Below, one piece after another: positions 6,177 to 10,310 of a DNA stretch of 12,909 nucleotides. The notes beneath the pieces were generated by a model. That model was not told the origin of the DNA, searched no databases, and saw only the letters and a program-made list of their open reading frames with translations. Each line of letters begins with the position of its first letter. The first letter of the stretch is position 1. The stretch lies in contig JALGVQ010000074.1 in assembly GCA_025774615.1 (NCBI GenBank), positions 1 through 12,909 of the forward strand. Direction: 5' to 3'. This DNA is from a bacterium. Lineage in GTDB: Bacteria > Blakebacterota > Blakebacteria > Blakebacterales > Blakebacteraceae. A program made the position numbers and the translations under genes.

Positions 6177-8528
6177 TCAGAACAGGAACAGATACGTAGC
6201 CTTCAGCATCAGGGTACGGTTTGTCGCCGTCGGGTCGAACGTGAGTCCCGTGTCGTAGTTCTCGTTATAAACCAGGTAGATCTCTGTACCGTCACGGATG
6301 ATCCAGTGGAGCAGATAGTTCGAGACGATGGCGTTCCGGCTTTCATTGTACTGCAGATACCCCTTCACGAACAGGTCAGGCGTGAAGGCGTACTGGGCAC
6401 GCAGGCTGAGGGTACTGGTCGTGAACCTCTGCTTCAGGATGTTATCGGGATTATCTGTGGCAAATCCCTGGATGTCTGTCGACCCGATGTCCCAGAGAGA
6501 GTTCCTGGTGAGACTGAGATCCATCGTAAAATGGGAGTTGGGTTGGAACGTGGTGCTGAGGTTAACGCTCACCTGCTGGCCATTGTAATAGGCGCCAAGC
6601 TGGCCGCCCCCTCTGAACCGGAGGGATTTCCGGCTGTCTGTGGAACCGTGGAAAAAGATACCCGTCCATTCGTAGATCCCGGCCGGGATCACCACCACAT
6701 CGTTGTTATCGGGATTGCTGAATATCCGGAAGTCGTAATCGAGGATGTCGAGTTCCCGGCCCACACTGATGAAGAAGCTGGCCGTGTTTTCCATCGAGAG
6801 GCGGGTACGGAAGGTCATTTCCCGGGTAAGCATCCGGTTGGCGATATCGGTCAGGTAGCTTCCCTCGACAGTCAACGCAACCTGCCGGATTCCCAGGACT
6901 CCCGGTCGGGGGGCCCACTCCAGCTTTCCCGAAGTCTCCCGGACATCGGTCCGGCGGATGTACCCCATCTCGTTTGCCTGAAAGTCGTCTCCCACCCTGC
7001 GATGGGAGATATTGAAGTCATACAGGTCTGAGTCGTAGTCGAACCGCCCCGAATACGCTACCGCGTCGCCCGTGATCCCCGGGTCGAAGACCTGCGCCAC
7101 CTCCATGGTAATCTTCATGACCTCGGTCAGGGCCAGGTTGGTATCGAGACGCAGACTCCGGTTGTATTCGCCCGCTCGCGGGTCTTTGCTCAACGCCATG
7201 ATCCCGATCGATGAGCGTTCAAAGATGTTCCGACGGAGTGAGACGACCGACCAGTTGGTCAGAGGGATAACGTCACCATCCGAGTCGGTCTTCTCGGTCG
7301 TGACGACATTCAGGGCCCCGATAGTCCACGGCCCGGTACGCCCGGTGATCTTCCCGCCACCGATGATCGGTACCTCTGATCCGTCCGAAGCCAGTCCGAT
7401 ACGACGGCTGTAGAAGAGCTGGAGATCGGGTCCACCTCCATACCCACCCCCGCCACCACCGCCACCCATACCGAATCCCCGTCCCCCGCCGGCACCGAAG
7501 ATGGCGGCACCCTCGAGGAAGAAGTCACGTTTCTCGGGAAAGAAGAGACTGAAGCGGGTCAGATTCACCCGCTCCTGGTCGGCTTCGACCTGGGCAAAAT
7601 CGGTATTGAGTGTGAGATCGAGGGTCAGGTTGGCCGAAGGCGCGAACTTGATATCGAGACCCCCGTCAGCGACACTGCCGGTCGTCCGGGAAGGGTCACC
7701 CGGGTCTGGGGCGAGATCGCGGTTCATCTCCAGACCGCCGATGGCATACGGCTTCACCTGGAGGTTGGTGCCCTGGCCGAGGCCGGAGAGACCGGTCAGG
7801 GTACCGGCGTTCGAGAGCCGGTGGAGACCGAAATATCCAAGATGCCGGGGTGTGGGAACCCAGTAGACCTCTTCGTTGTTCTTTCTGATCGTTCGTCGGA
7901 AGTTGATCCCCCAGGCCTGCTCTCCGTCGGTCGATGCGAACCTGAGCTGGTTCAGGGGGATCGCCATCTCGGCAGTCCAGCCCTCCCCGTTGATGTCGGT
8001 CGCCGCTTCCCAGACGATATTGAAGTCGCTGTTCACGCTTCGACCTTCATCGGTGATGTAGCCGTCGTAGCGGGCGCCCGCGGGGTTGACGTTGAATATG
8101 AAACCGTTCCGGTGATCGAGGAAGGTGTCGATGATGATCGCGAGGTGGTCGTCAGCGTGGAGGCGTCCATCCCTGCGGAGCTGAGTGATGACAAGGCTCC
8201 CGGTATCGGCGTGGTACATCCTCGCGCCGATATAAAGGGTCTGACGGGTATAGACGATCCGTATCTCGGTCCGTTCGGTAGCAGGTGCTCCTTCAACGGG
8301 GTCACGCTGGGTGAAACCGGTGGCCGCTTCTGCCCGGTTCCACAGCGACTCGTCCAGTCGCCCGTCGAGGATCGGAGCTTCTTCGACGAAGAGTGCCCGG
8401 AGCGAGTAATCAGCCGGATCGTAGTTTCCGATCCCCTGCTGGGTGAGTGCTGTCCCCTCTGGAATGATCAGACTGGAAAGGAGAAGAAACAGGGGGAATC
8501 GCCTGGTTGGATGAATACGGTGCTTCAG
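6177..8528 (-). CDS. CBM9-like / DUF5916 outer-membrane beta-barrel protein (CTG start)
   Basis: The reading frame gives 783 residues. A signal peptide (basic KHRIHPTRR, core FPLFLLLSSLII, cleavage near GTA-LTQQ) is followed by a CBM9-like domain (about 45-260) containing ILDGRLDESLW and IRIVYTRQTLYIGARM, then the family hallmark FFPEKRDFFLEG (about 329-340) and a long C-terminal region of alternating strands ending LMLKATYLFLF, as expected of an outer-membrane barrel. Carbohydrate binding or envelope transport is suggested by family; no reaction is known. The first canonical in-frame start is the ATG at 8219, inside the CBM9-like domain, which would remove the signal peptide. The frame is open back to a stop at 8607-8609 and contains no ATG, GTG or TTG there. 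CTG at 8528 lies 9 bases after AGGAG and is the best start. A one-base frameshift near 8530 is the alternative. A glycine-rich insert lies at about 345-366. Confidence 0.88.
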   Translation of the reverse strand: MKHRIHPTRRFPLFLLLSSLIIPEGTALTQQGIGNYDPADYSLRALFVEEAPILDGRLDESLWNRAEAATGFTQRDPVEGAPATERTEIRIVYTRQTLYIGARMYHADTGSLVITQLRRDGRLHADDHLAIIIDTFLDHRNGFIFNVNPAGARYDGYITDEGRSVNSDFNIVWEAATDINGEGWTAEMAIPLNQLRFASTDGEQAWGINFRRTIRKNNEEVYWVPTPRHLGYFGLHRLSNAGTLTGLSGLGQGTNLQVKPYAIGGLEMNRDLAPDPGDPSRTTGSVADGGLDIKFAPSANLTLDLTLNTDFAQVEADQERVNLTRFSLFFPEKRDFFLEGAAIFGAGGGRGFGMGGGGGGGGYGGGPDLQLFYSRRIGLASDGSEVPIIGGGKITGRTGPWTIGALNVVTTEKTDSDGDVIPLTNWSVVSLRRNIFERSSIGIMALSKDPRAGEYNRSLRLDTNLALTEVMKITMEVAQVFDPGITGDAVAYSGRFDYDSDLYDFNISHRRVGDDFQANEMGYIRRTDVRETSGKLEWAPRPGVLGIRQVALTVEGSYLTDIANRMLTREMTFRTRLSMENTASFFISVGRELDILDYDFRIFSNPDNNDVVVIPAGIYEWTGIFFHGSTDSRKSLRFRGGGQLGAYYNGQQVSVNLSTTFQPNSHFTMDLSLTRNSLWDIGSTDIQGFATDNPDNILKQRFTTSTLSLRAQYAFTPDLFVKGYLQYNESRNAIVSNYLLHWIIRDGTEIYLVYNENYDTGLTFDPTATNRTLMLKATYLFLF

Positions 8529-8734: not shown

Positions 8735-9622
8735 CTACAACTCGCTCCCCGTGAGCCATTCGTAGATGGCGCGATACCGTCTGGAGGTCTCAGCGACGAT
8801 CTCATCCGGGAGATCGGGACCGGGATCGGTCTTGTCCCAGTCGAGGGTTTCCAGATAATCGCGTACATACTGCTTGTCGAGACTCGCCTGGGCGACACCC
8901 ACCGTGTATGTGTCGGCGGGCCAGAACCTGGATGAATCGGGTGTGAGTACTTCGTCTATCAGGATCAGTTCTCCGTTGAGCAGGCCGAACTCGAATTTCG
9001 TGTCGGCGATGATGATCCCCTTCTCCGCAGCCTCGGCCGAACCCTTGAGATATATCTCGACGGCAAGGTCGCGCGCCTGACGTGCGACCTCGACTCCGAC
9101 GATCGACTCCATCCTTTCGAAGGAAATGTTCTCGTCGTGATCGCCATGCTCGGCCTTGGTGGCAGGGGTGAAGATCGGTTCAGGAAGTTGACTCGAGAGT
9201 TCGAGTCCCGCAGGGAGCTGGACACCGCTGGTGGATGAGGTCTGCTGGTAATCCTTCCAGCCCGATCCGGCCAGGTAGCCGCGGATGACACACTCGACGG
9301 GCAGGGGATCGGCTTTCTTCACCAGCATGCTCCGCCCCTGCAGGAGTTCAGCATGCGCCCGTGCCTCTTCCGGATAATCGTCAGGATCGACGGAGATCAT
9401 GTGGTTGGGGACGATCGACTCCATCCGCGAGAACCAGTAAGCGGAGATCTGCGTCAGCACCTTCCCCTTGTCGGTGATCGGTGTCGGTAGAATAACATCG
9501 AATGCCGAGAGACGGTCAGTTGCCACGATCATCATCCGATCATCGAAATCATAGATGTCGCGGACCTTCCCCCGGCCGATCAGGGGGATACCTTCCAGTT
9601 CTGTCGAATAGATCGGTTCCAT
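8735..9622 (-). CDS. purC: Phosphoribosylaminoimidazole-succinocarboxamide synthase (SAICAR synthetase)
   Basis: PurC joins CAIR and aspartate with ATP to give SAICAR in de novo purine synthesis, in the cytoplasm. The 295-residue protein shows GRGKVRDIYD (16-25), ATDRLSAFDVILP (34-46), RGYLAGSGWKDY (114-125), the loop FTPATKAEHGDHDENIS (151-167), IADTKFEFG (205-213) and LIDEVLTPDSSRFW (221-234), all expected of the family. It is of the longer form, about 300 residues, resembling the ADE1-type layout, and not the roughly 240-residue E. coli form. The ATG at 9622 directly abuts the TAG of the upstream ThiE-like gene, with its ribosome site AAGGAG lying inside that gene, so translation is probably coupled. 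No other purine gene is in the window. The assignment is firm. Confidence 0.97.
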   Translation of the reverse strand: MEPIYSTELEGIPLIGRGKVRDIYDFDDRMMIVATDRLSAFDVILPTPITDKGKVLTQISAYWFSRMESIVPNHMISVDPDDYPEEARAHAELLQGRSMLVKKADPLPVECVIRGYLAGSGWKDYQQTSSTSGVQLPAGLELSSQLPEPIFTPATKAEHGDHDENISFERMESIVGVEVARQARDLAVEIYLKGSAEAAEKGIIIADTKFEFGLLNGELILIDEVLTPDSSRFWPADTYTVGVAQASLDKQYVRDYLETLDWDKTDPGPDLPDEIVAETSRRYRAIYEWLTGSEL

Positions 9623-10294
9623 CTACTGCTCCTTCTGGTTCCCAGGTTCACTGATGTTCAGTTTCCGGGTCTCCTCAACCCATTCCTTCGCGATCCGCTC
9701 GGGATCATCCGACTCGAAGACCGCCCTCGAGCACGCTGTCCCGGCCGCGCCCATCTCGATCGCCGTGCCGGTATTTTCCGGCGAAATGCCGCCTGTAGCG
9801 ATAACTGGGACCCAACCCTCCGCACATATACCGGCCAGGGCATCGACGCCCACAGGCGCCCCGTAGCGTTCTTCGTCGGGAGAGTCGAATACCGGTCCGT
9901 AGAGCACATAATCCGCGGTCCCGGCCGAGGCCCGAGCTACATCTGCCTGATCATGAGCCGTGGTACCGACCAGAAAATCCTTCCGGTCGAGCCGGAGGGC
10001 AAGTTCCCGCGCCGCCTCGGGATGGAGATCGCGTTCACCAAGCACCACGCCGTGCGCGCGCATGGCAAGCGCCACATCGAGGCGTCCTCTCACGATCACC
10101 CTGGCACGGGATGAGTTCGCCAGTGATAGTATTTCCGAAGTGAGACCGGCCAGATCATGAGATGAGACGTGTGTCCCCTGGATCTGTACCGCATCGACTC
10201 CCGAGTTCAGAGCGAGCCGCACGACACGGATCGTCTCTTCACGACCGTACTGTTCGACATCAGCGATCAGATATGTCCGGAATGGCAGGTTCAG
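9623..10294 (-). CDS. Divergent thiamine-phosphate synthase / TenI-like protein (CTG start)
   Basis: The 223-residue product has the ThiE/TenI TIM-barrel pattern: TYLIAD (strand 1), GVDAVQIQ (strand 2), DVALAMRAHGVVLGERDL (strands 3-4), VGTTAHD, GTADYVLYGPVFDSP and VPVIATGGISPENTGTAIEMGAAGTACSRAVFE (phosphate-binding end). Several thiamine-phosphate-synthase residues are missing: the QLRxK motif reads QIQGT, the INDR motif reads VRGR, and the HLGQ histidine is Val. It is therefore more likely TenI-like or of another function than a working ThiE. The first canonical start is GTG 10222, which would delete strand 1. CTG 10294 lies exactly 7 bases behind AAAAGGAGG and restores the family length, with an in-frame TGA just upstream. 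It abuts purC with no gap. AIR, the intermediate shared by purine and thiamine synthesis, makes the pairing suggestive. Confidence 0.85.
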   Translation of the reverse strand: MNLPFRTYLIADVEQYGREETIRVVRLALNSGVDAVQIQGTHVSSHDLAGLTSEILSLANSSRARVIVRGRLDVALAMRAHGVVLGERDLHPEAARELALRLDRKDFLVGTTAHDQADVARASAGTADYVLYGPVFDSPDEERYGAPVGVDALAGICAEGWVPVIATGGISPENTGTAIEMGAAGTACSRAVFESDDPERIAKEWVEETRKLNISEPGNQKEQ

Positions 10295-10301
10295 GGCTCA
10301 T

Positions 10302-10310
10302 CCTCCTTTT
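10302..10310 (-). promoter_or_regulatory. Strong ribosome binding site that decides a CTG start
   Basis: On the minus strand AAAAGGAGG ends 7 bases before CTG 10294-10292. An ATG touching the site (10301-10299) opens only a 13-codon frame ending in TGA and has zero spacing, so it is an unlikely main start. The position of this site is the chief argument for CTG initiation of the ThiE-like gene. Confidence 0.6.

Follow-up and report, generated by a model that had tools for sequence, protein, structure and literature searches.

Translation of the TMP-TENI (ThiE/TenI-like) gene in the window, as the whole analyzed stretch of 12,909 nucleotides is called here, most probably starts at the CTG codon at 10294, a reading to which we give a probability of roughly 0.8 on the basis of sequence comparisons. 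This codon follows a strong Shine-Dalgarno (SD) sequence, AAAAGGAGG. The conservation of the CTG start and its SD across the phylum very probably represents real biology, of a rare kind that is already known in bacteria.

The CTG at 10294 is in frame with TYLIAD and with the stop codon TAG at 9625-9623 on the minus strand, which gives a protein of 223 residues; further in-frame CTGs stand at 10288 and 10270. In the window, no ATG, GTG, or TTG is present in this frame on the minus strand between the TGA at 10300-10298 and the GTG at 10222, and the coding signal derived from codon usage starts at 10297. An earlier note on this DNA (the sequence-only reading) had reported that AAAAGGAGG stands exactly 7 bases ahead of the CTG, which is indeed the case (10310-10302, followed by the CTG at 10294-10292), and that the first barrel strand (TYLIAD) is coded upstream of the GTG at 10222, with which both the frame and a structure model agree. 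It had also named CTGs as the sole possible starts; this holds with respect to ATG, GTG, and TTG, but the near-cognate ATC is in frame too, for example at 10267.

Table 1. Features of the window that bear on the proposed start of the TMP-TENI gene and on its surroundings.
Feature	Position	Strand	Basis or remark
Shine-Dalgarno sequence AAAAGGAGG	10302..10310	-	Direct sequence reading; 4/4 phylum genomes have GGAG(G) here
Out-of-frame ATG 10301 mini-ORF (13 codons), rejected	10260..10301	-	Zero spacing from GGAGG
In-frame TGA stop just upstream of CTG 10294	10298..10300	-	Sequence reading
Proposed CTG start codon	10292..10294	-	GGAGG ends 7 nt ahead; aligned codon is CTG in 4/4 genomes
GTG, first canonical in-frame start (codon 25), rejected as gene start	10220..10222	-	
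TMP-TENI (ThiE/TenI-like) gene, 223 aa	9623..10294	-	PF02581, 121.1 bits against a cut-off of 27
purC, with its own AAGGAG, directly downstream (TAG-ATG)	8735..9622	-	PRK13961/purC, above cut-off
Second candidate CTG start, DUF5916 gene (8528-6177; PF19313)	8526..8528	-	Aligned with GTG in G002 and G003

The metagenome-assembled genome of an uncultured bacterium that holds the window (G000; 3.3 Mb, contig C77) was compared with three further genomes of the phylum: G001, of the same genus (public contig JALGWK010000194.1; L032/L053), and G002 (L054) and G003 (L055), of a second genus. Each of these four sequences comes from a metagenome assembly, and together they represent two genera only. The orthologous proteins are 55-77% identical to that of the window, and their first codons align without gaps: CTG AAC CTG CCA TTC CGG ACA in G000, CTG AAC GTG CTG ATG CGC ACC in G001, CTG AAA GCA CCC GTG AGA ACA in G002, and CTG AAG TCA CCC TTG CGA ACG in G003. 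Within codons -8 to +8, only the CTG and the GGA of the SD are identical in the four genomes; variation is seen on both sides of the CTG, in codons -3 to -1 and in codons 2 to 8. The distance from GGAG(G) to the CTG is 7 nt in each genome, and each has an in-frame stop codon ahead of the CTG, at a distance of 6 to 42 nt. Thus, the CTG is not located inside a longer frame that opens further upstream. Codons 6 to 24 are conserved as protein, with changes among the four genomes that fall mostly at third positions; together with the coding signal from 10297, this indicates that translation starts upstream of the GTG at 10222. Constraint at the protein level is not clearly evident in codons 2 to 5 of these genomes, and the second codon is A-rich in all of them (AAC, AAC, AAA, and AAG). 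With the CTG at the homologous position and the same SD spacing in four genomes of four, the CTG initiation proposed in the sequence-only reading is supported. For the three relatives, our confidence in CTG initiation is somewhat lower than for the window. In a scan of a wider genome collection, the relative of the same genus was the sole match, and homologues outside the phylum are too distant for their starts to be compared.

The three relatives carry a canonical codon at codon 5 (ATG in G001, GTG in G002, and TTG in G003), from which it can be argued that codon 5 is the true start of the family, that the window lost it by a substitution to TTC, either real or a consensus error, and that the CTG is untranslated spacer. 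A protein that starts at codon 5 would still have a normal length for the superfamily, and the free variation of codons 2 to 5 between genomes would agree with such a start. Nevertheless, codon 5 is 19 nt away from the SD in all four genomes, which is a background distance in G000, and there is no closer SD. In addition, this reading does not account for the CTG kept at precisely 7 nt in all four genomes, it deprives the window of any usable start, and the presence of NTG at codon 5 is equally explained by a hydrophobic residue (F, M, V, or L) before strand 1. A start at codon 5 is, in consequence, considered unlikely. In G001, there is additionally a GTG at codon 3, with an SD spacing of 13 nt. 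Since infC of this lineage has a GTG start at 13 nt from GGAGG, the spacing argument is tempered for this GTG of G001, but not for the window, where there is no canonical codon to choose.

Other explanations dispense with the CTG through a sequence error or a later start. That one extra base, introduced in sequencing or assembly, separates the ATG at 10301 from the barrel frame and masks a normal ATG start is very improbable, even though this ATG lies close by and would fall into frame if there were one base fewer before the CTG (the sequence-only reading spoke here of a missing base, whereas one base fewer or two more would be needed). In G001, which was assembled independently, the spacing is equal, there is no indel, and TGG stands in place of this ATG; neither G002 nor G003 has an ATG at the position, and GGAGG abuts the ATG (0 nt), too close to work. 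Equally little weight can be given to translation from the GTG at 10222, with the conserved frame upstream of it untranslated. This GTG is the first canonical in-frame start and the choice of a standard gene caller, but the codon at its position is GTG, GTA, ATA, and GTG in G000, G001, G002, and G003, respectively, codons 6 to 24 upstream of it are kept as protein, and, as strand 1 of the barrel is formed by residues 7-12, it would be deleted by such a start. The two outcomes that the sequence-only reading had named as speaking against a CTG start thus fail: the ATG at 10301, to be joined by a frameshift, is absent from the relatives and leaves no spacer after the SD, and orthologues starting at the position of GTG 10222 would need a codon that is not conserved. 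Finally, selenocysteine insertion or stop read-through from an upstream ATG-x-x-TGA (ATG 10321) was rejected, given that the window has two upstream TGAs and that no ATG is present in G002 or G003.

The spacing that is usual in this organism was obtained from 680 called genes in 1.12 Mb of G000. In these genes, the preferred distance of GGAGG is 5-10 nt for ATG and 6-10 nt for GTG, and the occurrence of GGAGG at 19 nt is at background level (none for ATG, two for GTG, and none for TTG). Only 11 of 10,894 intragenic CTGs in G000 (0.1%) have an SD match of at least 7 nt located 6-8 nt upstream. Near gene starts, two CTGs have such a match: CTG 10294 and a CTG at L184, which was set aside as it sits directly before an ATG. 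Genome-wide, CTGs near gene starts are not enriched in SDs (6.3%, no more than other codons), which rules out a general habit of CTG starts in the lineage. A canonical start is absent nearby in 62 genes, and for three of these a CTG start is convincing; the candidates at L130 and L048 were discarded because a better canonical start exists downstream in both.

In addition to the TMP-TENI gene, CTG is a candidate start in the DUF5916 gene of the window and in a GAF-GGDEF gene of another contig (L166:7432, plus strand, C172 of G000). In the DUF5916 gene, AGGAG lies upstream of the CTG at 8528 with a GGAGG-equivalent spacing of 8 nt, the frame of this CTG opens a signal-peptide-like N-terminus, and there is no canonical start before the ATG at 8219. 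The gene begins with CTG AAG CAC in the window as against GTG TGG CAC in G002 and GTG CGG CAC in G003. In the GAF-GGDEF gene, the CTG is 6 nt after GAGGAGG and precedes the first canonical start by 132 nt (44 codons), and CTG ATC GAA in G000 corresponds to ATG ATC GAT in G002. In the DUF5916 and GAF-GGDEF genes, CTG appears to have replaced GTG or ATG recently, whereas the CTG of the TMP-TENI gene looks old and shared. As relatives have GTG or ATG where these two genes have CTG, CTG seems to be usable as a start in this lineage. It is doubtful, nevertheless, that a few genes of this phylum (TenI/ThiE-like, DUF5916, and the GAF-GGDEF sensor) stably retain CTG as a fourth start codon that is conserved across genera and deliberately sets expression low or makes it sensitive to IF3.

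Initiation at CTG 10294 would proceed by the positioning of this codon in the ribosomal P site by the strong SD 7 nt upstream, and initiator fMet-tRNA would pair with C-U-G despite the mismatch at the first position. We infer that ribosomes initiate at this codon with insertion of methionine, so that the product would be the TMP-TENI barrel protein (f)Met-Asn-Leu-Pro-Phe-Arg-Thr-Tyr-Leu-Ile-Ala-Asp and so on. It is known that wild-type tRNAfMet favors GUG and UUG over CUG (PMC11497404). Perhaps the strong SD partly offsets the weak CTG codon, which in turn may hold expression low. By analogy with sigR (PMC5472188), IF3 would be expected to discriminate against CTG 10294 as it does against other non-canonical starts. 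A missing IF3 or a changed initiator tRNA was rejected as the cause of CTG initiation, as the IF3 gene is present in three genomes of the phylum and the initiator tRNA of G000 has a normal GGG/CCC anticodon stem. No stable RNA structure that hides or exposes the CTG start was found (z-scores of 0.5 to 0.8), and neither a promoter nor a terminator was found in the intergenic gap.

With regard to the protein, its profile places it in the ThiE/TenI superfamily (PF02581; structures 1xi3, 2tps, and 1yad), with which it has the barrel fold in common. A model built from the four orthologues, of moderate confidence (mean pLDDT of 74, higher in the first half), has eight barrel strands, of which the first is TYLIAD. 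The term ThiE-like, used in the sequence-only reading, is correct at the superfamily level but not beyond it: the window protein scores 116.7 bits against the ThiE equivalog TIGR00693 (cut-off of 145.1; G001 and G002 orthologues, 113.9 and 131.6) and 89.4 bits against the TenI equivalog PRK07695 (cut-off of 251), and a bona fide ThiE is encoded on another contig, C220 (220.1 bits). The protein also differs from ThiE in an Asn-Asp pair that is present in G002 and G003 (VNDRLD) and lost in G000 (VRGRLD) and G001 (VKGHLD); this pair is part of the ThiE active site. Its loss suggests that function changed within the family between the two genera. Within the superfamily, the window protein is probably not a ThiE. 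A ThiO-like gene, recognized by eye only, is located close by in G003, and a function in the thiazole branch, or another non-ThiE function, is a guess.

The order DUF4097 gene, TMP-TENI gene, and purC is found in all four genomes, and the DUF5916 gene comes after purC in G000, G002, and G003, while the contig of G001 ends there. The direct TAG-ATG junction to purC is limited to the genus of the window; in G002 and G003, the two genes are separated by 78 and 163 nt, respectively. Because of this limitation, and because purC has its own AAGGAG, the suggestion that the CTG tunes the coupled purC is graded as speculation.

Some further genes of G000 have unusual frames. A thioredoxin-like protein (L097:15190-15700, minus strand; C64) has a TGA at the first cysteine of its motif (FGAPW-U-GYC), and a peroxiredoxin (L105:5750-6340, minus strand; C72) has one at the peroxidatic position (FYPGDFTFV-U-ATE); both are likely selenoproteins, and from the latter the lineage probably uses selenocysteine. 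An aminotransferase-like frame is broken by TAG at about 2646 of L041 (minus strand; C9), and an AcpS-like gene at about 7594 of L079 (minus strand; C26) has no canonical start upstream of its conserved N-terminus, both families being judged by eye. These two cases are possibly frameshifts or other unusual starts.

Standard gene callers accept ATG, GTG, and TTG only, which would cut the window gene by 24 residues, and in the relatives they would probably misplace the start by four codons. A CTG shared by every sampled member of the phylum would mean that starts of this type can persist in evolution, and with this compact test case one can ask if weak start codons are retained for a regulatory purpose. 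Comparing the aligned codon and a fixed SD spacing across metagenome-assembled genomes, as was done here, could serve as a general check.

Non-canonical starts are known from other bacteria. The sigR gene of Streptomyces starts with GTC, and both its repression by IF3 and the requirement to restrict SigR relative to RsrA have been shown experimentally (PMC5472188). The window gene resembles sigR in the conservation of its non-canonical start across related species and in having a co-transcribed gene directly after it; by contrast, its codon is CTG rather than GTC. In E. coli, infC starts with ATT and is autoregulated by IF3 (PMC5472188). Like the window gene, infC is present in one copy and has a non-canonical start codon where ATG, GTG, or TTG would be usual, although no autoregulation loop such as that of IF3 is expected for the TMP-TENI protein. 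In a survey of prokaryotes, switches to CUG were found for 2 of 61,358 ancestral AUG, 1 of 5,080 GUG, and 1 of 2,468 UUG codons, and a strong SD was reported to compensate for weak start codons (PMC5622118). Unlike the CUGs of that survey, the window CTG start is invisible to a standard gene caller. Moreover, the survey CUGs are recent switches in annotated genomes, whereas the window CTG is common to the four sampled members of the phylum, in two genera.
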